64,000 nt of DNA, taken from the NCBI GenBank assembly GCA_937891465.1, contig CALAHF010000166.1, positions 62,001-126,000 of the forward strand, written 5' to 3'. Positions within the stretch are counted from its first letter, which is position 1. Each line of letters begins with the position of its first letter. Positions 3,012 through 64,000 of this stretch are shown here, piece by piece. The notes below the pieces were generated by a model that saw only the letters and a list, made by a program, of their open reading frames with translations, was not told the DNA's origin and made no database searches. The stretch is from an uncultured Verrucomicrobiales bacterium. GTDB lineage: Bacteria; Verrucomicrobiota; Verrucomicrobiia; Verrucomicrobiales; DEV007. Position numbers and translations under genes: made by a program.

Positions 3012-3054
3012 CGAACCAATTCGGTCTGTTCGGCGAATCAACAGGGTTGGAACG
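3012..3054. repeat. 43-bp dyad repeat, copy 1
   Basis: Two 21-bp modules joined by one base. The second module carries CAACAGGGT; the first is degenerate. It lies 12 bp after the stop of the propeller gene. Confidence 0.75.
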
Positions 3055-8968: not shown

Positions 8969-9011
8969 CGAACGGACAGGGTAAGTTCGGCGAATCAATA
9001 GGGTGCGTTCG
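8969..9011. repeat. 43-bp dyad repeat, copy 2
   Basis: Both modules have AGGGT in the forward orientation (ACAGGGT, then CAATAGGGT), so this is a direct rather than inverted pair. It lies 7 bp after the esterase stop codon. Confidence 0.85.
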
Positions 9012-12171: not shown

Positions 12172-12972
12172 TCATTTTTTCTCTTCAACGATCGCCAGGA
12201 TCCCCGCAAACCAATTGGTATCGGGAATCGGCCCGGTGACGTTTCTTTGAAAATAATGGGAAATATCCCCGTCGAGATACAACGCATTTGGGCAATTCAA
12301 TTTATCGCGAAACAGCTCGGCAAATCCATACAGATTGATTTGCCCTTTATTGGGAGTCCGATCCGAGCACACTAAAATGACCGTCCCGTCTTTGGTCACA
12401 CCGACTCCATTGCGGATCAGCCGACTTTTTGATGGCTCGTTGAATGCAGGATGAATTCGTCCATCGCCTAGCAACATTGGGCCCGATTGGGTTGCCAGAA
12501 TCGGCTTCTCGCCGGACTTTGCGTAGGCATGGCTTTCTAAAACACCGGCAGTTTTATCCGGCCGAATGAAGAAAACCCCATTGGGCTTTAAAAAAACATT
12601 GGGCGTATTCTCGTCAGGACGTTTTTTGAAGTAGTCCCTCAAAGTCAGCGGCACGATCGTTTTTCTTTCGGAAATGTGAAGCCCGGTGAAAAGAAAAGTC
12701 GGCTCGTAGATACCTGAATTGAGAGCCAGTTTGAGCTGCTTGCCCTGTTTGTTGAGCCTCGCCTCAAGGTCTTTGAAAGTCTGCGGTTTGCCTTTTTCCT
12801 CTGCAAGAAACAGCTGGAGCGTCCCTTTTTTCAGATCGAGTCGATACACCCAGAAAGTCGCACCTTTGTGCTCGATCGTTTCTGCATGGGCGAGACCAAA
12901 CTGAAACAACAGGGTCAGCACGACAATCACACCCTGTTGGATCGCTTTTGAATGAGAAGACAACGGCATCAC
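12172..12972 (-). CDS. Phosphodiester glycosidase (NAGPA/DUF2233) domain protein, secreted
   Basis: 266 residues with a signal peptide (hydrophobic stretch ~12-30, ending AHA). The mature part is typical of the NAGPA family: LALNSGIYEPTFLFTGLHIS, KPNGVFFI, ATQSGPMLLGDG, RNGVGVTKDGTVILVCSD and the ending CPNALYLDGDISHYFQ. The family cleaves phosphodiester-linked sugars; in bacteria it is often linked to envelope polymers. It is convergent with the oxidoreductase gene, with 7 bp between the stops. The substrate is unknown. Confidence 0.82.
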   Translation of the reverse strand: MMPLSSHSKAIQQGVIVVLTLLFQFGLAHAETIEHKGATFWVYRLDLKKGTLQLFLAEEKGKPQTFKDLEARLNKQGKQLKLALNSGIYEPTFLFTGLHISERKTIVPLTLRDYFKKRPDENTPNVFLKPNGVFFIRPDKTAGVLESHAYAKSGEKPILATQSGPMLLGDGRIHPAFNEPSKSRLIRNGVGVTKDGTVILVCSDRTPNKGQINLYGFAELFRDKLNCPNALYLDGDISHYFQRNVTGPIPDTNWFAGILAIVEEKK

Positions 12973-15839: not shown

Positions 15840-17834
15840 GTGAAACCCGTTCTCAACGCGGTCATAATCCTATTCCAATTTCTCGTATTCCTCGCAATTC
15901 TGCTGATGGAAACGGTCGTTCGGCCTCTGCCGCTGCGGCTTTGTGAACAAATAGGCTCGGCCATGGGAGCCGTTGGATCCTGGTTTTCTCCCAGCTACCG
16001 GAAACTGGTTCGACGAAATCTCAGAATCGCATTTGAAGGCGAAAAGACGGAAGTCGAGATCAATTCGCTCGCCAGGGACCACTTCATTTCATTGGGACGC
16101 AATTTTCTAGTGAGCCTAAAAACGGCGTTGTTGCCGCTCGATGAAATCGAAAAACGCGTCCGTTACGAGGGATTCGAACATATGGAGGCAGCAGCGGCGG
16201 CGGAAAAAGGAATCATCATTGCGATTTCACACTCAGCGAACTGGGAACTGTTTGCGCGTCTTCCGGCCGTGACGGGTGGACTTTCGCCAGCCACTCTTTT
16301 CCAAAAAGTGAAGAATCCATTTTTGAATCAGCACATCGAAAAACGGCGCGCGGCTTCTGGATTGAAACTCTTTGATCGTTCGACTGGCTTCAGCGGCCCC
16401 ACCGAACACCTTCGCGCAAATGGCGCGGTAGGAGTGCTGTTCGACCAACATGCCGGCGAGCGCGGCGTTTGGTGCCCATTCTTCGGCCGTCTGGCTTCAA
16501 CGACAAACCTCCCTGCCCTACTGAGTTTGCGAACCAGCGCTCCGGTGATTTCCGTCGGGCTATTTCGAAATGGCCCCGGTAGTTGGAAAGTAGTCTGTCG
16601 CCCGGCCCATTTTCCTCCGGCAAAAGTCGGTGGTCGTAATGCGCGCCAAAATGCGATCAATGAGCTAACCGCAAAGCTGAATGCCGAACTTGAAAAATTT
16701 GTGCAGGCGGATCCCCGCGAGTGGTTTTGGGTTCACAATCGGTGGAAGACTCCCGAAGAGAGATTTTTACTCGCCCCTTATAAAAGAGGCGTTTTTGTCC
16801 CACAGACCAATGTTCCGGTAAAAATTAAACCCTTTCGGCTTCTGGTTCGCTCCCCCAATCCTTTGGGCGACGCCTGCATGGCGATTCCCGCCATTCACGC
16901 CATTAAACGAAGCCGAATAGACGTGAAGATCACTATCCTGTGCCGCGAAAATCTCGAACCACTCTGGAATCGCTTGCCTGAGATTGACGACGTGATTGCC
17001 GTGCCGAAAAAACTCGGGAAACGGAAGATCGGTCAAATCGTGCGCGAGCATGCAGATTTCGACGCCGCGTTGTTGCTTCCCAATTCACTGAGCTCTGCGA
17101 TCGAAGCAAAATCAGCCGGCATAAAACACATTGCCGGCTACGAAGGCCATTCCCGCAAGCGCTTGCTTGATCACATCGCCCGTCCGGCAAAAGCCGGCCC
17201 ACCCGTTCATCACGTAAATTTCTACCTTCACCTCGCTGAACAAGTCGGAGCTGATATTTCAGACAAAGACAGCCTCCTGCTTTTCGGCGGGGGAAAAACC
17301 GTGCCGACTCCCGGCGAAATTCGAATTGGCGTCTGTCCCGGAGCCGAATACGGCAACGCCAAGCGGTATCCACTAGACCGTTACACCACCGCTTTAAATA
17401 CCGTTCGTGAAGCCGCCGCGCCGGGCGGTGCCGAGATGAAGTTCCTCATTTTTGGAAGTCCAAACGAGAAACCTATCGGCGAAGAACTTGCCGGAATGCT
17501 CGGTGATGCCAATTTCAATCGTGCCGGAAAAACCACCATCGACGGCCTTATCGAAGAATTACTAACCTGCGACGTTCTAGTTTCCAACGACACCGGCACC
17601 ATGCACCTCGGAGCTGTCATGGGAATTCCCACCGTCGCGATCTTCGGATCGACTGAGCCGCAACTGACCGCACCGCTTGGCCCCGGGCACACCGTGTTGC
17701 GCCACTACGTCGAGTGCAGCCCATGTTTCCTGCGAGACTGTGCCTTCGATTACCGTTGCATGCTGCGCATGGAGCCAAACCTCGTTTCCGATGCAATCAT
17801 TGGCCAGCTGAAAAAGCTCTCCATGATCCACTAG
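15840..17834 (+). CDS. Fused LpxL-like lipid A acyltransferase and GT9 glycosyltransferase
   Basis: 664 residues from a GTG start. Residues ~1-315 are a lysophospholipid/lipid A acyltransferase of the LpxL/HtrB type: an N-terminal membrane helix, the HX4E motif H131-SANW-E136, and the later FDQHAGERGVWCPFFGR. Residues ~330-664 are a family 9 glycosyltransferase (heptosyltransferase type): RSPNPLGDACMAIPAIHAI and the sugar-nucleotide site SNDTGTMHLGAVMGIPTVAIFG. Both activities belong to lipid A/core assembly at the inner membrane, normally in separate proteins. The natural order of domains and the continuous frame argue for a real fusion. The stop codon TAG lies within a dyad repeat. Confidence 0.87.
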   Translation: MKPVLNAVIILFQFLVFLAILLMETVVRPLPLRLCEQIGSAMGAVGSWFSPSYRKLVRRNLRIAFEGEKTEVEINSLARDHFISLGRNFLVSLKTALLPLDEIEKRVRYEGFEHMEAAAAAEKGIIIAISHSANWELFARLPAVTGGLSPATLFQKVKNPFLNQHIEKRRAASGLKLFDRSTGFSGPTEHLRANGAVGVLFDQHAGERGVWCPFFGRLASTTNLPALLSLRTSAPVISVGLFRNGPGSWKVVCRPAHFPPAKVGGRNARQNAINELTAKLNAELEKFVQADPREWFWVHNRWKTPEERFLLAPYKRGVFVPQTNVPVKIKPFRLLVRSPNPLGDACMAIPAIHAIKRSRIDVKITILCRENLEPLWNRLPEIDDVIAVPKKLGKRKIGQIVREHADFDAALLLPNSLSSAIEAKSAGIKHIAGYEGHSRKRLLDHIARPAKAGPPVHHVNFYLHLAEQVGADISDKDSLLLFGGGKTVPTPGEIRIGVCPGAEYGNAKRYPLDRYTTALNTVREAAAPGGAEMKFLIFGSPNEKPIGEELAGMLGDANFNRAGKTTIDGLIEELLTCDVLVSNDTGTMHLGAVMGIPTVAIFGSTEPQLTAPLGPGHTVLRHYVECSPCFLRDCAFDYRCMLRMEPNLVSDAIIGQLKKLSMIH

Positions 17835-17866
17835 GGTTGGTTCGTCGAACGGATAGGGTTCGTTCG
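17824..17866. repeat. 43-bp dyad repeat, copy 3
   Basis: Modules read CACTAGGGT and GGATAGGGT in direct orientation with GTTCGTCGAAC-like sequence between. It spans the last codons and stop (TAG 17832-17834) of the acyltransferase fusion, between two convergent genes. Confidence 0.85.
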
Positions 17867-24577: not shown

Positions 24578-24624
24578 CGATCCAACAGGCAGGGTTGGTT
24601 CATCGAGCGCACCCTATTGGATCG
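24578..24624. repeat. Dyad repeat, copy 4 (47 bp, 4-bp insertion)
   Basis: Inverted pair with extended arms: TTCACGATCCAACAG from 24574 pairs with CTATTGGATCGTGAA ending at 24628. A 4-bp duplication-like insertion near CAGGCAGGG makes it the only complete pair that departs from the 43-bp length. It lies between lpxA and the prepilin cassette. Confidence 0.85.
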
Positions 24625-29943: not shown

Positions 29944-29986
29944 CGAGGCAATAGGGTAAGTTCAACGAACCAACCCTATTGATTCG
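29944..29986. repeat. 43-bp dyad repeat, copy 5
   Basis: Well-formed inverted pair (CAATAGGGT ... ACCCTATTGATTCG). It lies in the divergent gap between the prepilin cassette and the small secreted gene. Confidence 0.9.
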
Positions 29987-29997
29987 AAACGGCCCCG

Positions 29998-30040
29998 CGA
30001 TCCAATACTATCCGTTCATCGAACACACCCTATTGGATCG
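29998..30040. repeat. 43-bp dyad repeat, copy 6
   Basis: Inverted pair only 11 bp after copy 5. The left module has drifted (CAATACTAT) but the right arm ACCCTATTGGATCG is intact. Confidence 0.85.
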
Positions 30041-33045: not shown

Positions 33046-33066
33046 CGACCAAACCCTATTGATTCG
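33046..33066. repeat. Half module (21 bp) of the dyad repeat
   Basis: Reads as the right arm, with AACCCTATTGATTCG. It ends at the base just before the cimA start codon, occupying the place where a ribosome binding site would be. Confidence 0.75.
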
Positions 33067-34641
33067 ATGAACGAACCCTCCTCACTCGTAAAACTCTACG
33101 ACACGACCCTCCGCGACGGCACGCAGGGCGAAGGCGTCAGCTTTTCCTCGAAGGATAAAATTCGCGTTGCCAAAGAGCTCGACGAGTTCGGCATGGATTA
33201 CATCGAAGGGGGTTGGCCGGGATCAAATCCCAAAGACGTCGCCTTTTTCGAAGAAGCCGCAAAGTTAGAGTGGAAACACGCGAAAATCGCCGCGTTTGGC
33301 TCAACTCGCCGGAAAGGAACGGATGTTGAAAAAGACGGGCAGGTGCAACTTTTGCTCGATGCCCAGACACCGGTGGTAACATTTTTCGGAAAAAGCTGGA
33401 AGCTCCACGTCACAGAAATTCTCACGACAACGGTCGAGGAAAATCAGGCCATGATCCGCGATACGACGGCGTTTTTGAAAGAAAACGGACGTGAGGTGAT
33501 CTACGATGCCGAGCACTTTTTTGACGGTTACAAAGACGATCCTGAGCATGCACTCGCAACCCTCGCGGCAGCCAAAGAAGGCGGCGCAGACTGGCTAGTG
33601 CTTTGCGATACCAATGGCGGAGCGATGCCGCATGAGGTCGCCGAAATGACGGAGGCCGTCATAAAAACGCTCGGAATTCCCGTCGGCATTCACACCCACG
33701 ATGACACCGGAGTCGCCGTCGCAAATGCCCTCGCCTCCGTGCTGGCCGGTGCGACCCAAATTCAGGGAACGGTCAACGGCTACGGCGAGCGCACCGGAAA
33801 TTGCAATCTCACGACCGCAATGCCGAATTTGTCGATGAAAATGGGCTACCAGCACAACGGCAACATCGAGAAACTGACCCACCTTTCTCACTTCGTCGAC
33901 GATCTCGCGAACAATGCCCACAACGCCCACGCTCCTTACGTTGGCTCAACCGCCTTCGCCCACAAAGGCGGTATGCACGTGAATGCCGTGCAAAAAGTGG
34001 CCCATAGTTTCGAGCACATCGAACCGGGTTCAGTCGGCAACAAGCAGCGCATTCTCGTGTCGGATCTGTCCGGTCAGTCGAATATCTTGATGAAGGCCGA
34101 CGAGTTCGGAATCGATCTTGCAAAAGGCAGCGACGAGGCAAAAGCTATCCTCGCAGATCTGAAAGACCTCGAGCAGGAGGGCTACGAGTTTGAAGCCGCA
34201 GAAGCATCGTTCGAGCTGCTCATCCGCAAGCATCTTTCGACCTACAAGCCGTTTTTCGATCTTCACGAATATCACTGCACCTACCGTCGCGATGGATTGA
34301 AAGACTACGATGCATGTTCCGCGACCGTTGAACTGAAGGTCAACGACACCGAAGAATATCGCGTCGCCAAAGGTGATGGCCCCGTGAACGCTCTCGATGC
34401 GGCTTTGCGAAAAGCTTTACGACCACATTTCCCTGAAATCGACGAAATGGAGCTTTCGGACTACAAAGTTCGCATCATCGACAGCCGTTCCGGAACCGCC
34501 GCAAAAACTCGCGTTTTGATCGAAAGCAAAGCCGGAAAAGAAACCTGGGGAACCGTTGGAGTAAGCGACAACATTATCCAAGCCAGCTGGCGTGCTCTCG
34601 TCGATTCCGTGGAGTATTTCTTGATGCGGAAGCAATCGTGA
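33067..34641 (+). CDS. cimA: Citramalate synthase
   Basis: 524 residues, the length of two-domain CimA. The DRE-TIM barrel starts LYDTTLRDGTQGEGVSFS; metal ligands fall in the DTNGG and HTHDDTG motifs (GIPVGIHTHDDTGVAVANAL). A LeuA-type allosteric domain follows at the C-terminus (SATVELKVNDTEEYRVAKGDGPVNALD). It makes (R)-citramalate from pyruvate and acetyl-CoA, the entry to threonine-independent isoleucine synthesis. The sequence matches the CimA branch better than isopropylmalate synthase. A dyad-repeat half module abuts the start codon and no Shine-Dalgarno sequence is visible. Confidence 0.9.
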   Translation: MNEPSSLVKLYDTTLRDGTQGEGVSFSSKDKIRVAKELDEFGMDYIEGGWPGSNPKDVAFFEEAAKLEWKHAKIAAFGSTRRKGTDVEKDGQVQLLLDAQTPVVTFFGKSWKLHVTEILTTTVEENQAMIRDTTAFLKENGREVIYDAEHFFDGYKDDPEHALATLAAAKEGGADWLVLCDTNGGAMPHEVAEMTEAVIKTLGIPVGIHTHDDTGVAVANALASVLAGATQIQGTVNGYGERTGNCNLTTAMPNLSMKMGYQHNGNIEKLTHLSHFVDDLANNAHNAHAPYVGSTAFAHKGGMHVNAVQKVAHSFEHIEPGSVGNKQRILVSDLSGQSNILMKADEFGIDLAKGSDEAKAILADLKDLEQEGYEFEAAEASFELLIRKHLSTYKPFFDLHEYHCTYRRDGLKDYDACSATVELKVNDTEEYRVAKGDGPVNALDAALRKALRPHFPEIDEMELSDYKVRIIDSRSGTAAKTRVLIESKAGKETWGTVGVSDNIIQASWRALVDSVEYFLMRKQS

Positions 34642-37143: not shown

Positions 37144-37186
37144 CGATCCAACAGAGTCTGTTCGACGAACGCACCCTATTGATTCG
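37144..37186. repeat. 43-bp dyad repeat, copy 7
   Basis: Near-perfect inverted pair with the central palindrome GTTCGACGAAC. It lies between the convergent M28 peptidase and DUF1501 genes and could fold as a bidirectional hairpin. Confidence 0.9.
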
Positions 37187-41500: not shown

Positions 41501-42191
41501 CGCCTCTGATGTAACCGGTTCCGATGGTCAAATCTGAATCGGCTTTGACCACAGGAGCCCGATCCGTTTTACCGCCAAGATCCCACGTTCCCTTGGTCAA
41601 TCGACCATCGATGTAGGCTCGCAAGCTATCGCCTTTCCCGAAAGTATAGACCAAAGCCACATGATGCCATCCTTCGGCCTGAAACGTGGCCATGCTCCAC
41701 CAACGATGAAATTCACTCGCGCCACTGTCCGCACTTCCCTCGCTTGAAAACAGAAATCCCAGCTGAATCCCCGATTCACCTCCCTTGAGACGCATCGCAT
41801 AGTTCTGAGTGCTTTCGTTTCCTTTTCTCCCACGTCCGACAAGATATGGCATTTGTCCGCTATCCAATTTATTCACCCGAATCCAGGTTTCCATCGTGAT
41901 TGACTCACCGGCCCGAATTTTGATTTGTTGATTGTGCGAAGGCTTGATTTCAATCGCATCTTTGGCGGTCGTGAATTTTCGGGCAACGTTATCCGATCGC
42001 ATTCCCGGATACTCTGGTGCCCGCGGTCCCACTTCTTTTTCATCTCCGAAATCGAAAGCCACGATTGGAGCTGGATCAGCCGCAAACAAAGAACCGGCGC
42101 TTAAAATCAACAATGCGGCGCACGAACCAGCTCTATTGAATTGGCGAACAGGCCCTATTGATTCGAAAAATTGGCGCGGTCGAAGTTTCAT
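38514..42191 (-). CDS. PVC-type cytochrome: LamG + PSCyt1 + DUF1549 + DUF1553
   Basis: 1225 residues, exported. A LamG/concanavalin-like domain (~70-270; ESITMETWIRVNK, YIDGRLTKGTWDLGG) is followed by a c-type haem domain with CYDCH (PLLESKCYDCHKGSEIKGDLRLDT) and MPPKGDPLS, then DUF1549 with a second CxxCH (FKCARCHDAPGHEW) and DUF1553 to the C-terminus (RIWQRIMGRGIV, LSLPRITAVTSIMRTFGWRGARQDPKSFRD). It probably works with the DUF1501 protein in a periplasmic redox or degradation step (inference). Residues 9-23 (FESIGPVRQFNRAGS) are encoded by a dyad repeat and lengthen the basic part of the signal peptide. Confidence 0.88.
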   Translation of the reverse strand: MKLRPRQFFESIGPVRQFNRAGSCAALLILSAGSLFAADPAPIVAFDFGDEKEVGPRAPEYPGMRSDNVARKFTTAKDAIEIKPSHNQQIKIRAGESITMETWIRVNKLDSGQMPYLVGRGRKGNESTQNYAMRLKGGESGIQLGFLFSSEGSADSGASEFHRWWSMATFQAEGWHHVALVYTFGKGDSLRAYIDGRLTKGTWDLGGKTDRAPVVKADSDLTIGTGYIRGAGQTFNGWLDDVRIYREELSDEVLKSRFVFVPPPPQITKEMLKDGEVLVQISEKGLAAENKWPDWPEVTESYSIPAFGISEWPQKYISTGVRADRVNPSHVRAAAMVKIPKGKHRLLLRGRGAARLKIDEKLILETPFPKGDTGGHGYLTSQDDYLDLGRDFRFVPPGNREKWIEFESKGGEHFVILETIVGGVAGSNRRRPEFGETVAAISLEGTETWKLLNPGQQEIAYTDEGWAKYESEQKSWLAAKNSQRRAARRAENSEYWTKRRDAAKKWLADSEPVVIPDLPKGMLGQNAIDHFIGTQIVKVSAESKPVKTGGINYFKQIQPLLESKCYDCHKGSEIKGDLRLDTKEAAMKGGKSDGPALVAGNLDESSLIWRIRHDAGDDIMPPKGDPLSKEEITLLEQWVKEGANWPQFNVPNFKPTPLADDLVFLRRLALDTIGVPPSEVEITRLLAEPMEKRKAAAIDRFLADDRWADNWTGYWQDVLAENPNIINPTLNNTGPFRWWIHESLLDNKPLDLFVTELIRMEGSERFGGPRGFGTASNNDVPMAAKGIIVSSAFLGVQFKCARCHDAPGHEWMQKDLFQLAAMLGEKPLKLPLTSSVPMDKLHERTRKPLIKVTLKPGTSVEPGWPFEGFVSEKDVMPLVENPKSKRDQLATFITAPANERFAQVMANRIWQRIMGRGIVATVHDWEKGNASHPDLLRWLGRELVASNYDTKAVARLIFNSHAYQRATDPTLQKTSPLFIAPASRRLQAEQVVDSLFSATGKPFDVEEVSLDIDSVRVMKSSITLGKPTRAWMLASTSNERDRPSLSLPRITAVTSIMRTFGWRGARQDPKSFRDLDANVLQPAILANGTVGVWLSRLSDDHGVTQMALEEQPVEKLVERLYLRLLTRHPSKEERDRYIQFLTEGYEKRVIPEAERKHTKVGKRVPVKYVSWSNHLDGKANALAVEKEEQARAGAPPTNALANDWRMRMEDVVWAVLNSPEWIYTP
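42123..42165. repeat. 43-bp dyad repeat, copy 8 (inside a CDS)
   Basis: Both modules read ACCCT/CTCTATTG-like in the same orientation on the plus strand. It is translated as residues 9-23 of the DUF1549/DUF1553 protein. Confidence 0.85.
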
Positions 42192-44963: not shown

Positions 44964-45006
44964 CGATCCAATAGGGTATTATAGAAGAACGTATACTATT
45001 GATTCG
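44964..45006. repeat. 43-bp dyad repeat, copy 9
   Basis: Inverted pair with clear outer arms (CGATCCAATAGGGT ... ACTATTGATTCG) and a drifted centre. A further partial arm, TACCCTATCGAT, precedes it at 44956-44967. It covers the stop codon of ugd. Confidence 0.88.
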
Positions 45007-49865: not shown

Positions 49866-49908
49866 CGAACTAACCCCATTGAATCACCGAACCAACCATA
49901 TCAGATCG
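49866..49908. repeat. 43-bp dyad repeat, copy 10
   Basis: Both modules have the reverse orientation (TAACCCCATTG, then CAACCATAT). Drifted but exactly 43 bp. It lies between rpoD and radC. Confidence 0.75.
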
Positions 49909-53815: not shown

Positions 53816-56098
53816 ATGAAAAACTCCCGCCGTTTATTCCACTACGCCAGCCTCGTGATCTGCGGCATTTTTGGTCTCAGTCTACAGAACACAGCAGAAA
53901 AACCTCCCCTCGCTGAGAAACCGGCGATCGAGAAAAAAATCGAAGCAACAGGGTCCGATCGACAAACCAACCCTGTTGATTCGAAAAAAGCACAGTTTGC
54001 CGGAAAAATTGTCGTCATCCCTGTGGGAAGCGAAGAAATTGAGGACGACGAAAGATTCCGTGATTTCCGCGTTTTACTGAAAGAAATCGACAAAAGCAAA
54101 GCCAGCGCTGTGATTTTCGAAATTGATGGTGCAAACGTCCGTGATTGGTCGATCAACGAGCGCTTCTTGAGCGAAATCGAAAATCTAAAGACTCCGAAAT
54201 ACAGTTTCATCAACAAATCCGGAACTGAGTCCGGGACCTTCGTCGCCCTCGCCACGAAGGAAATTTACATGGCCCCCGGCGGCATTATCGGGGGAGCAGG
54301 TTTATGGCCAAAGTCTCTCGAAAACGAAGAGGCTCAAAAGCGGTATATCGCTCAGTTCATTTCCCTAATGAAGGTGAAAGCCCGCAGTCTCGCCTCTCAG
54401 AACAAGCATCGGGTTGAAATTGTCGAAGCATTTATCGACAGCGAAGTTGAGGTCAAAACTGGCGACAAGGTTATTTCAAAGAAAGGTGAGATCCTGACGC
54501 TCACCGCCGAAGAAGCCGTTCAAACAATGCCAGATGGCAAACCGCTGATCGCTGCTGGAATCGTGAAATCCATCGACGAGATGGTCGAAAAGATCGGGCT
54601 TTCCGGTGAAATCGAAAAAGTCGACGCAGAAGCCTTCGTGAAAAAACGTAACCGCGACCGGCTCAACCAGAAAACATCTGAAAAAACCCGGAAAGACCGT
54701 CAGGAAGCTGAGAACGACGACAGCCTTTTCTCCAAACGATCCGGCGAAAACATGAAGGGAAAAATCGTCGTTCTCGAAGTCGGACTCGACACCCTGAGCA
54801 GTGGCGAAGCGAGCTTCCTCCATATGGATCGCATCGTTAAAAAAGCTGAACTCGATGGTGCTGAAGCCGTCATTTTCGACATGGATACTCCCGGCGGTTA
54901 CGCCTGGTATACGCAGGGGCTCGTTTTGAACAGCCTCCAAAACCTGACCATTCCAACCTATTCATTCGTCAATCCGCGAGCTGAATCTGCCGGTGCCATC
55001 ATCGCAATCGGGACCGATACCATTTACATGAGACCCGCTGCAACCATTGGCTCTGCCCTCGTTGTCGGAGGCGGAGGTGGTGATCTTGGAGAATCCATGA
55101 CTGACAAAGTCACCAAGGAAATCATGCAAATGGTCGAAAACGTCGCCATCATCAAAGGGCACAATCCGGACATCGCGAAAGCCTTCGTCTCCAAAGACAC
55201 CCGCGTGGAAATCGACGGCACCGTCGTTCACGATGGTGATGGAGTGCTCAATCTGAACTCGATTCGCGCAACCGAGATCATCGGAGGCAAGCCCGTCTTA
55301 GCCAAAGGAATCGCGATTGATCTCGAAGACCTCGTCGAACAAGAAGGCCTCACTGGCGAGATCGTCAAAGCCGAAGCCCTCGGGATGGAAGCGATTGCCG
55401 GCTGGGTTCAGAAATTTTCCTTTCTGCTGATCATGGTCGGACTCGCCGGGGCCTACATGGAAATGAAAGCCCCCGGTTTTGGCGCCCCCGGTCTTATTTC
55501 AGTCCTTTGTTTCAGCATCTTTTTCTTCGGGAATCATATGGCGGGGAATCTGGCGGGTTATGAATTAGCAGTCGTTTTCGTGATTGGAATTATTCTAATC
55601 ATCGTTGAAATTTTCCTTTTTCCCGGCCTGATATTCCCTGCTCTCATCGGTACCCTCATGGTGCTCGGATCCCTCGTCTTTGCGATGGGCGACCGCGTAG
55701 ATTTCCAGTGGAAAATGGACGGCAAGCCCGGCGCACTGCCTTGGGAAGACCTGTTTAGCGGCGCGATGATGAATCTGGCGATCGCTTTGATCGGCGTAGG
55801 ACTGATCCTGTGGTGGGCCATGCGATTTCTTCCCGAAACCCGTTTCGGAAGCTGGATGATCTTGAAAGAATCCATCGCCGGCGGAGCCTCCATTGGAGAA
55901 CGCGACGCAGAAACCGGCATCGCCGAAAGTTATGTCGGCCTCGAAGGCATTGCCGAGAGCGCTTTACGCCCAGCCGGAAAAGGCCGATTCGACAAAAAGT
56001 TTCTCGACATCACCGCCGACGGCGAATTCATCGAAACCGGCACCGCCCTGAAAATCGTGAAACACGAAGGCAGCCGCATCGTCGTCGAGCGCGCCTAA
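53816..56098 (+). CDS. NfeD-like membrane protein with two tandem ClpP/SppA-class domains
   Basis: 760 residues from ATG 53816. Signal or anchor (residues ~8-24), then two homologous serine-protease-like domains: first at ~60-290 (GKIVVIPVGSEEIEDDERF ... EIYMAPGGIIGGAG), second at ~318-540 (GKIVVLEVGLDTLSSGEAS ... PRAESAGAIIAIGTDTIYM ... AATIGSALV). The membrane domain follows (four to five helices) and then the C-terminal NfeD OB domain (ESYVGLEGIAESALRPAGKGRFDKKFLDITADGEF). NfeD proteins are linked to membrane quality control with stomatins. Residues 42-56 are encoded by a dyad repeat. Confidence 0.85.
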   Translation: MKNSRRLFHYASLVICGIFGLSLQNTAEKPPLAEKPAIEKKIEATGSDRQTNPVDSKKAQFAGKIVVIPVGSEEIEDDERFRDFRVLLKEIDKSKASAVIFEIDGANVRDWSINERFLSEIENLKTPKYSFINKSGTESGTFVALATKEIYMAPGGIIGGAGLWPKSLENEEAQKRYIAQFISLMKVKARSLASQNKHRVEIVEAFIDSEVEVKTGDKVISKKGEILTLTAEEAVQTMPDGKPLIAAGIVKSIDEMVEKIGLSGEIEKVDAEAFVKKRNRDRLNQKTSEKTRKDRQEAENDDSLFSKRSGENMKGKIVVLEVGLDTLSSGEASFLHMDRIVKKAELDGAEAVIFDMDTPGGYAWYTQGLVLNSLQNLTIPTYSFVNPRAESAGAIIAIGTDTIYMRPAATIGSALVVGGGGGDLGESMTDKVTKEIMQMVENVAIIKGHNPDIAKAFVSKDTRVEIDGTVVHDGDGVLNLNSIRATEIIGGKPVLAKGIAIDLEDLVEQEGLTGEIVKAEALGMEAIAGWVQKFSFLLIMVGLAGAYMEMKAPGFGAPGLISVLCFSIFFFGNHMAGNLAGYELAVVFVIGIILIIVEIFLFPGLIFPALIGTLMVLGSLVFAMGDRVDFQWKMDGKPGALPWEDLFSGAMMNLAIALIGVGLILWWAMRFLPETRFGSWMILKESIAGGASIGERDAETGIAESYVGLEGIAESALRPAGKGRFDKKFLDITADGEFIETGTALKIVKHEGSRIVVERA
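53941..53983. repeat. 43-bp dyad repeat, copy 11 (inside a CDS)
   Basis: Inverted pair CAACAGGGT ... ACCCTGTTGATTCG. It is translated as part of the linker between the leader and first protease-like domain of the NfeD protein (TGSDRQTNPVDS). Confidence 0.9.
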
Positions 56099-56147: not shown

Positions 56148-56212
56148 CGATGCAACAGGGTACGTTCGACGAATCAACAGGGTCTGATCGATGAAGCAAC
56201 CCTATTGGTTCG
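56148..56212. repeat. 65-bp array of three dyad-repeat modules, copy 12
   Basis: Two forward modules (CAACAGGGT twice) and one reverse (AACCCTATTG), each 21 bp with single-base joints, giving 22-bp spacing. It lies between the convergent NfeD and LamG-like genes. Confidence 0.9.
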
Positions 56213-62460: not shown

Positions 62461-63351
62461 TCAAATATTGCCTTCGACGCCGTTTTGCACGCCTTCTTCA
62501 TAAATCAGAAACAGCCCCGAGTGATCCAAATCGCCGTAGCCATCAGCGACAAACTTTTCCCAGAGCGCACTCGAATTTTCCAAGGTCGATGATTTCAGTC
62601 CCACCGATTCCGCCAACTCGCACATCAGCCGAACATCCTTGAGTTGCCACGTCGCTTTGCCGCCCGGCTCAAAATCCCGCCGCACCATCCGATCTCCATG
62701 CAGATCCAAAATTCGGCTTTCAGCAAATCCACCCCGCAGCGCCTCGCGAACGGTTCCTGAATCGACTCCCGCCAGCTCCGCCATCCGCAACGCTTGCGCG
62801 ACCGCATCGATTGTTTGGGCAACAATCAACTGATTCGCCAACTTCGTAACCTGCCCTGCTCCCGATTCGCCAACATGAGTAATTTTCTCACCAACAACCT
62901 CAAGAATCGGAAGCGCTCGCTCAAAATTCTCAACCGCCCCCCCCACCATGATCGTCAAATTTGCAGCTTTCGCTCCGACTTCGCCACCCGAAACCGGCGA
63001 ATCAACCCAGTTCACTTTTTCAGCAAAACGTTTCGTCGCAGGCACTCCAGTCGTTCCAAAATCGATGATCAGCGCGTCGGGATCGAGTTTTTCGTGAAGC
63101 CCACCTTCGCCAAACACCAGTTTTTCAACCACATCCGTCAGCGTCAGGTTCACGCAAATCACTCCATCGCCAACTCGCTCCGCCAGTTCTTGAAGTGACT
63201 TCGCCCGAGACAGCCCATCGCGAACCGCGGCTTCCGCCGGCTCAGGGCTGCGATTCCATACGATCACTTCAGCGCCCGCCGCGTGAAGGTGACGCGCCAT
63301 CGGGGCACCCATATTTCCTAGGCCCACGAATCCGATCTTGTTTCCGGTCAT
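62461..63351 (-). CDS. Beta-hydroxyacid dehydrogenase (3-hydroxyisobutyrate dehydrogenase family)
   Basis: 296 residues from ATG 63351 (MTGNKIGFVGLGNMGAPMARHL). The dinucleotide motif GLGNMGAPMA, substrate motif DSPVSGGEVGA, and catalytic Lys in GQVTKLANQLIVA define the family. Substrate could be 3-hydroxyisobutyrate, tartronate semialdehyde or L-threonate. It is divergent, 30 bp from the DenD-like gene; a role in C4 sugar-acid (threonate/erythronate) metabolism is therefore possible but unproven. The longer in-frame start at 63447 would overlap that gene and is rejected. Confidence 0.88.
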   Translation of the reverse strand: MTGNKIGFVGLGNMGAPMARHLHAAGAEVIVWNRSPEPAEAAVRDGLSRAKSLQELAERVGDGVICVNLTLTDVVEKLVFGEGGLHEKLDPDALIIDFGTTGVPATKRFAEKVNWVDSPVSGGEVGAKAANLTIMVGGAVENFERALPILEVVGEKITHVGESGAGQVTKLANQLIVAQTIDAVAQALRMAELAGVDSGTVREALRGGFAESRILDLHGDRMVRRDFEPGGKATWQLKDVRLMCELAESVGLKSSTLENSSALWEKFVADGYGDLDHSGLFLIYEEGVQNGVEGNI

Positions 63352-63381
63352 GCTTTCATTTTTAATCGCTTCACTCAAAAA

Positions 63382-64000
63382 ATGAAAGTCATCATCACCG
63401 GCGGCGGCGGATTTCTCGGATTCCAGCTCTGCAAAAAACTCCAGCAAATTGGTACACTAACCGGCCCATCAGGCGAACCTGAACCCATCGACGAGATCGT
63501 GCTCTTCGACGCCCATTTCTCCGAAACGATCCAACAGGGTCTGTTTGATGACCCAACAGGGTCTGCTCGTGGCCTGTCCAGCTCGCTGGACGATGGCCCA
63601 AACCTATCCACTTCGAACCAACAGGGTTCGTTCGTCGAACCAACACTGTTAACCCGTGACATCACGGAGCGCGATGCCGTCTTCGATGCGATTGATGGCG
63701 AAGACGTTTCAGTTTTTCACCTCGCCTCAATGGTCTCAGGTGAATGCGAATTGGATTTTGATAATGCCCTGAGCGTGAACCTTGATGGGGGTCGACACGT
63801 ATTTGAAGCAACACGCGCACGTGGCCCAAAATCGCGACTAGTCTTTGCCAGTTCCATCGCGTGTTTCGGCGGCGAAGCGATGCCGGATACGCTCACCGAT
63901 TCTACGAAGCACTGGCCGCAAACCACTTACGGAATGACCAAATCGATCTGCGAACAGCTGGTGAATGATTATTCTCGCAAAAGTCATTTCGATGGACGAT
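63382..64000 (+). CDS. DenD-like NAD-dependent epimerase/dehydrogenase, 3' truncated
   Basis: About 206 residues are visible and the frame is open at the window end. SDR features: VIITGGGGFLG, VFHLASMVSGECELDFDNALSVNLDGG, FASSIACFGG, and the active-site YGMTK with the following SICEQLVNDYSR. HLASMVSGE-x-E-x-DFD and QTTYGMTKSICEQLVNDYSR fit D-erythronate dehydrogenase (DenD) well. Residues 49-92 (from about IQQGLFDDPTGS to NQQGSFVEPTLLTR) are encoded by two dyad repeats and the spacer between them. They sit between the second strand (EIVLFDA) and RDITERDAV, where relatives have only a short loop. Confidence 0.82.
   Translation, partial: MKVIITGGGGFLGFQLCKKLQQIGTLTGPSGEPEPIDEIVLFDAHFSETIQQGLFDDPTGSARGLSSSLDDGPNLSTSNQQGSFVEPTLLTRDITERDAVFDAIDGEDVSVFHLASMVSGECELDFDNALSVNLDGGRHVFEATRARGPKSRLVFASSIACFGGEAMPDTLTDSTKHWPQTTYGMTKSICEQLVNDYSRKSHFDGR
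63527..63569. repeat. 43-bp dyad repeat, copy 13 (inside a CDS)
   Basis: Two forward modules, each with CAACAGGGTCTG. Both use CAACAG rather than CAATAG, which avoids a TAG in this reading frame. Confidence 0.88.
63570..63613. repeat. Spacer hairpin between two dyad repeats
   Basis: 44 bp separating copies 13 and 14. It contains the inverted repeat GTCCAGC/GCTGGAC (63577-63592) flanked by GGCC on both sides, then a degenerate module end (AACCTATCCACTTCG). Confidence 0.5.
63614..63656. repeat. 43-bp dyad repeat, copy 14 (inside a CDS)
   Basis: A perfect forward module (CAACAGGGTTCGTTCG) followed by a drifted one (CAACACTGTTAACCCG). It is still exactly 43 bp. Confidence 0.82.

Follow-up and report, generated by a model that had tools for sequence, protein, structure and literature searches.

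Within the coding sequence of a DenD-like dehydrogenase gene, at the end of the window (the whole stretch of DNA analysed, 64,000 nucleotides from an uncultured Verrucomicrobiales bacterium), stands a repeat that recurs throughout the genome. On balance, the evidence favors reading this stretch as a protein-coding instance of a DNA signal that is spread over the genome, resembles uptake sequences and would have a comparable function, here locally expanded. Comparison of homologues indicates that one unit of the repeat in denD is old, dating from before the split of genera g1 and g12, when it already occupied its present position in place of native codons. In the window species a half-site, a 44-bp hairpin and another half-site, together 87 bp and thus a multiple of three, would then have been added beside this ancestral unit, giving 29 extra residues in an enzyme that remains under purifying selection.

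The dehydrogenase gene and its repeat

The gene (63382-63999, plus strand) is represented in the window by the first 206 of its 357 codons, the remainder lying past the window end. Its reading frame, which the initial annotation had called intact, is indeed open at the 3' end and continues to 357 aa in the full contig (C166). The product matches the Pfam Epimerase family (PF01370) at 58.5 bits, above the cut-off of 20.9, and carries the TGxxGxxG and YxxxK motifs, which together identify it as an extended, NAD-dependent short-chain dehydrogenase (SDR). The catalytic motifs, also described earlier as well kept, are present as TGGGGFLG, S157/S158 and Y183-x3-K187, with T6, G7, G10, G13, Y183 and K187 invariant. 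The best full-length family match is D-erythronate dehydrogenase (NCBIfam NF043036), at 283.7 bits, which does not reach the curated equivalog cut-off of 325 bits; because relatives that lack the 87-bp excess also fall below this value (294.5 and 300.1 bits), "DenD-like" is the right label. The likeness to DenD thus consists of the best match over the whole protein, the SDR motifs and the adjoining dehydrogenase gene, and the difference of a score below the cut-off and the presence of the repeat with its 29-residue excess. The adjoining gene (62461-63447, minus strand) encodes an NAD-binding, LtnD-like dehydrogenase of the 6PGDH/3-hydroxyisobutyrate type and is divergent from the DenD-like gene. 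This arrangement presumably fits a threonate/erythronate cassette, and the two genes probably act as a pair in threonate/erythronate catabolism.

In the part of the gene outside the repeat, dN amounts to 0.19 and dS to ~2.05 (NG86), and only 37% of 4-fold sites are identical. Judged by these substitution rates, the gene is under strong purifying selection, with synonymous divergence close to saturation, and a dN/dS of ~0.09 argues that it is functional, as had been supposed.

The repeat itself has the anatomy first ascribed to it, namely two 43-bp units and a 44-bp hairpin spacer at 63527-63656. The units, at 63527-63569 and 63614-63656, start 87 bp apart, are 71% identical and are in frame. 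Each consists of two 21-bp half-sites (CGAWYCAAYAGGGTNNGTTCG) at a pitch of exactly 22 bp, and the region therefore holds four half-sites, oriented +,+ (unit 1) and +,- (unit 2). The first of these (63527-63547, +), with one mismatch to the consensus, encodes TIQQG; it occupies the same position in the homologues of a same-genus relative (G001) and of two other repeat-bearing relatives (G012 and G023), and is probably the ancestral left arm. The second (63549-63569, +; three mismatches) encodes DPTGSA, is absent from the G001 homologue and belongs to the 87-bp excess. The spacer (63570-63613, +) encodes about RGLSSSLDDGPNLST, and its hairpin (GGCC..TCCAG-CTCG-CTGGA..GGCC) folds with DNA parameters at -8.6 kcal/mol (z -3.1; 0/200 shuffles); a search of the genome found no second copy of it. 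Unit 2 opens with a half-site that matches the consensus perfectly (63614-63634, +; encoding SNQQGSF) and closes with one in the opposite orientation (63636-63656, -; four mismatches), which encodes EPTLLTR, including the beta-3 strand. The arm orthologous to this last half-site reads ACCCTGTTG in G001, G012 and G023, and the half-site is probably the ancestral right arm.

When the two units are scored against the dimeric family motif, they reach 48.8 and 48.3 bits. Across 69 genes of this genome that lack arrays, the best score is -6.4 bits, so the denD units are not a product of chance. Likewise, the 10-mer CCAACAGGGT occurs 17 times in the window with at most one mismatch, versus 2.3 expected, and none of 100 shuffles reached 17.

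The denD unit among relatives and the 87-bp excess

At the same offset in all four genomes, 145 nt downstream of where the ATG begins, the denD dimer scores 48.8 bits in the window species, 41.7 in G001, 29.9 in G012 and 8.6 in G023. In other genera the unit scores 29.9 and 27.2 bits, decaying down to 8.6, as compared with -17 to -27 bits at this site in repeat-free relatives. A palindrome at or near the site is found in seven further named MAGs, all repeat-enriched, and among 80 denD homologues from named genomes it recurs in repeat-enriched genomes only, displaced by some codons or decayed in part of these carriers. The distribution of carriers on the denD tree requires three changes, such as a single gain with two losses; as many as three independent gains at this position are also compatible with the tree.

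DenD-like proteins with a single unit (329-332 aa) and without one (325-338 aa) are of similar length, which implies that the unit took the place of native codons. At the position of the left arm, repeat-free relatives show a related K-x-G-L motif, so that the original sequence already fitted the repeat motif in part. The same K-x-G-L motif is what lends color to the idea that protein constraint alone makes native QQG...TLL codons resemble the repeat, only the 87-bp duplication being real. Dimer scores of 30-49 bits, the exact 43-bp register and the restriction to repeat-enriched genomes make such a coincidence scarcely credible. The unit is also more than a loop in the predicted structure: in an AlphaFold model of the G001 protein, the unit-encoded residues 49-63 hold most of a helix (48-53) and a strand (59-62) of the Rossmann domain, and the ancestral unit is accordingly modelled as encoding a helix and the beta-3 strand (T-I-Q-Q-G...T-L-L-T-R).

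Relative to the same-genus homologue (L037), the window gene has a net insertion of 87 bp, which DNA alignment places at 63531-63617 (+), the placement being ambiguous within the repeats. This excess comprises the 44-bp hairpin plus two additional half-sites. It corresponds to 29 residues, with a matching 29-residue gap in all relatives aligned, and no relative among them has a loop of equal length without repeat-derived DNA. The repeats had been credited with supplying about 44 residues, a figure that has to be lowered to 29 since the same-genus homologue already has one unit. For the same reason, of the two origins proposed at the outset, two insertions into a repeat-free loop can be set aside, one unit being ancestral and present in other genera, while a single later gain of 87 bp agrees with the alignments. 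The gain may have arisen by duplication, by recombination with another array or by insertion.

In an AF2 model of the 206 residues in the window, residues 57-87 are without secondary structure, pLDDT is 47-48 across residues 61-80, and beta-3 lies at 88-91. The 29 extra residues are thus probably a disordered surface loop. The extra stretch is rich in Ser, Gly and Gln, as first described, and is predicted to be disordered between beta-2 and beta-3; the view that the insert precedes the following strand holds for this stretch but not for the repeat as a whole, because the strand at 88-91 (TLLT) is itself encoded by unit 2.

The excess might in principle be a chimera between repeats, given that the genome is a draft in 229 contigs and that the insert lies between repeats. 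Such an assembly error is very improbable: the excess is a multiple of three and introduces no stop, the 44-bp spacer has no other copy from which it could come, and to either side the coding sequence aligns with that of relatives at ~70-72%.

Abundance, architecture and spacing of the family

Half-sites with at most two mismatches number 765+753 (1,518) in the window species, 853+857 (1,710) in G001, 247+261 (508) in G012 and 65 in G023; the remaining 33 of the 37 genomes searched have 0-7 each. The half-site motif is thus strongly over-represented in both orientations (765+753 versus a control of 0), the reversed pattern having no match in the four repeat-bearing genomes. A pattern with a 16-base instead of a 15-base center, which serves as a register control only, gave near-zero counts. 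Seven further named MAGs have intermediate numbers of half-sites, some with a GC-richer dialect, and the half-site consensus differs between species.

Nearly all copies are dimers with a 22-bp pitch, of which 163 were counted, as against 0-1 each at 19, 20, 21, 23, 24 and 25 bp. Among 180 dimers in 886 kb of the window species, 105 are head-to-head (+-), 72 are head-to-tail and 3 are -+, the + and - half-sites differing chiefly in a central triplet (AGG/CCT). A larger form, of which there are ~13-15 in 458 kb, consists of two dimers separated by an 11-bp spacer, often AAAAGCC[AG]TTT, and spans 97 bp. Such double arrays lie at 29944-30040 in the window and at C80:42896, C80:102934 and C97:37574 elsewhere in the genome.

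A role as an RNA hairpin was considered and rejected. Head-to-tail dimers do not form a long hairpin (window 8969, z -1.7), which makes a conserved RNA structure unlikely, and an Rfam search of the window returned nothing. Between species, positions 3 and 17 of the arms appear to change together, which is only suggestive because half-site covariation within one genome is near expectation.

Besides denD, the window has further copies of the repeat, all but the second coding copy given without strand. Intergenic copies lie at 3012-3054 and 8969-9011 (both ++), at 24578-24624, at 49866-49908 (site A, --) and at the 97-bp double array already mentioned, and copies between convergent genes at 37144-37186 (+-) and 56148-56212, the latter a triple half-site array (++-). 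Copies at gene edges are found at 12902-12944 (+-), 33046-33088 (--) and 44964-45006 (+-), with another at the 3' end of a gene at 17824-17866 (site B, ++); a further copy lies at 42123-42165 (--). The second coding copy (site C, 53941-53983, +) forms an in-frame N-terminal linker in the gene for an NfeD/ClpP-class membrane protease (53816-56098). Sites A and B have a copy at the orthologous place in G001, that at site B with one half reoriented, and the copy at site C is nearly base-for-base conserved there.

Spacing and location in the window species were analysed on 886 kb of stretches, which contain 137 arrays: 117 are intergenic (~85%; intergenic DNA makes up ~12% of the sequence), 10 are at gene edges and 10 are inside genes. 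The denD copy raises the last number to 11, since the simple gene caller had missed the start of denD. The intervals between arrays, with a mean of ~6.3 kb, are more even than expected: their coefficient of variation (CV) is 0.61, versus 0.97 for random placement (0/5000) and 1.15 for a null model confined to intergenic DNA, in which none of 3000 trials was as even as the observed arrangement. Intervals shorter than 2 kb account for 3.8%, versus 27% expected under random placement and 36% under the intergenic-only model. The over-even spacing persists at each of four score thresholds, and it recurs in G012. At denD, the nearest arrays are 7.4 kb upstream and 5.7 kb downstream, making this the sole copy in a 13-kb stretch; it may have been retained because it would be the only signal there.

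Three places share copies with G001, one of them intergenic, one at a gene edge and one coding. The non-coding flanks at these places no longer align well, and yet, at synonymous saturation (dS ~2), the copies still match the family motif, with one half-site reoriented at two of the three. The orthologous places that have a half-site in opposite orientation are C166 79823 and 111865, compared with L221 and L222. Concerted evolution could also account for such conservation of copies, given that the consensus differs between species.

Copies inside genes and known repeat systems

Coding copies occur in dnaE, glpD, pyrD, cysS, panC, the NfeD-like protease gene and others in the window species, and in nadB, dnaG and proA in G012. 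Those in frame include L105-L106 (glpD), L116 (pyrD), L252 (cysS), L262 (panC), L099 (dnaE), L272 (nadB), L274 (dnaG) and L284 (proA). Gene names were read from the protein sequences, with a database match confirming panC, nadB and the NfeD-like protease. Comparison of glpD from G012 and G023 with the repeat-free G021 and G007 reveals no gap at the site, and comparison with the window species a gap of one residue. The length difference at the repeat in pyrD is 0-4 residues, and alignments of panC and nadB with enzymes of known structure from other bacteria run through the repeat with short gaps or none. These comparisons, which cover five genes only (denD, glpD, pyrD, panC and nadB), suggest that coding copies replace native codons rather than add to them where tested. 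Insertion with a matching deletion may also have produced this pattern.

The small or absent length gain bears on two rival explanations. Rickettsia palindromic elements stand in frame in unrelated protein genes, to which they add ~150 bp (PMC10969869), and the denD repeat could be a purely selfish element of this kind, persisting by adding peptide loops. Here too a palindromic repeat is in frame in unrelated genes, TIQQGxFDExxxLxR-type peptides recur in unrelated repeat-bearing proteins, and the extra 29 residues of the window gene do resemble an added loop. The explanation is nevertheless improbable, in that only ~11 of the 137 arrays are inside genes, repeat-bearing genes are largely as long as their repeat-free orthologues, and the tested coding copies replace residues: the ancestral denD unit adds few or none, and only the 87-bp array differs.

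The best rival is a family of selfish palindromes of the REP/REPIN type, short repeats that are associated with RAYT transposases and are mostly intergenic, sometimes intragenic (PMC3733652, PMC8049555). The half-sites would be REPs and the dimers REPINs, spread by a since-lost RAYT (Y1 transposase), and denD would have acquired an early copy and, more recently, another. The repeat shares with such elements a palindromic unit of 20-40 bp, its occurrence in dimers, its thousands of units and its mostly extragenic location (~85% intergenic). The head-to-head dimers 1 bp apart are also typical of REPs, and the GTAG-17 REPs of the verrucomicrobium Opitutus terrae form head-to-head dimers 1-2 bp apart, with intragenic double insertions in uvrA (PMC3733652). 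In the window species, moreover, the only match to a Y1 transposase (C171:2452-2754, L291) is a remnant with an in-frame TAA stop. Several observations count on the other side. Judging from positional frequencies, the consensus lacks a GTAG or CGTC tag; none of the Y1 genes checked in the window species, G012 and G023 has flanking copies of the repeat (the nearest copy is at 0.37 kb, and otherwise copies are more than 2 kb away or absent); and the repeat-rich window species and G001 have one Y1 match each, whereas the Y1-rich G004 (36) and G021 (28) lack the repeat. Mobilization by a RAYT was accordingly rejected, a Y1_Tnp search with a scan of flanks having given no association with the repeat. 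In light of these differences, together with the over-even spacing and the little or no length gain of coding copies, we regard the REP/REPIN explanation as less likely, if the most serious of the alternatives. Were it correct, the family would still be large, undescribed and notable for unusually old intragenic copies.

A DNA-level signal arising in place is instead suggested by the combination of even spacing, fixed architecture, persistence at synonymous saturation and low length change of coding copies. Uptake sequences (Neisseria DUS, Haemophilus USS) comprise hundreds to thousands of short conserved motifs in both orientations, reportedly with even spacing; they are proposed to form from sequence already present, through point mutation or recombination and not through insertion, and are known for inverted pairs, tolerance in coding regions and species dialects (PMC1939737, PMC2397512). 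The repeat resembles them in being over-represented, evenly spaced and, in the five genes compared, acquired with little insertion or deletion. It differs in that a single motif suffices for DUS and USS, most copies of which are unpaired, whereas the repeat unit is strictly dimeric (43 bp, two 21-bp half-sites), and in that it occurs about once per 6 kb and is ~85% intergenic. By analogy with uptake sequences, we infer that a copy would be wanted about every 6 kb, and that new copies would overwrite compatible sequence in place, by recombination, conversion or accumulated mutation, rather than arrive by transposon-style insertion. ComEC is present in the window species but does not discriminate, as most relatives have it too.

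No uptake signal for Verrucomicrobiota was found in the literature searched, and a text search with the core 9-mer of the repeat returned, among the matches listed, unrelated primers only. As far as this literature shows the family is undescribed, and it lies between REPs and uptake-type signals. A broader proposal, which we put forward tentatively and with some doubt, is that of a chromosome-wide Verrucomicrobiales signal: a 43-bp double half-site every ~6 kb that overwrites existing sequence, also within housekeeping-enzyme cores (denD, glpD, pyrD, panC, cysS, dnaE, dnaG and nadB), such that a need at the DNA level (uptake, segregation or nucleoid organization) would shape protein sequence. 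If so, a genome-wide signal would write itself into protein cores, with a repeat arm encoding a Rossmann beta-strand and several core metabolic and replication enzymes carrying the same kind of peptide. The repeat would then be a directly testable candidate for an uptake or chromosome-organization signal in uncultured Verrucomicrobiales, and would caution against taking such coding repeats for insertions.

A repeat copy is also found at a discontinuity in gene order. In G001, the copy at L221:7894-7937 separates homologues of genes that are ~29 kb apart on contig C166 of the window species, and is a possible rearrangement breakpoint.
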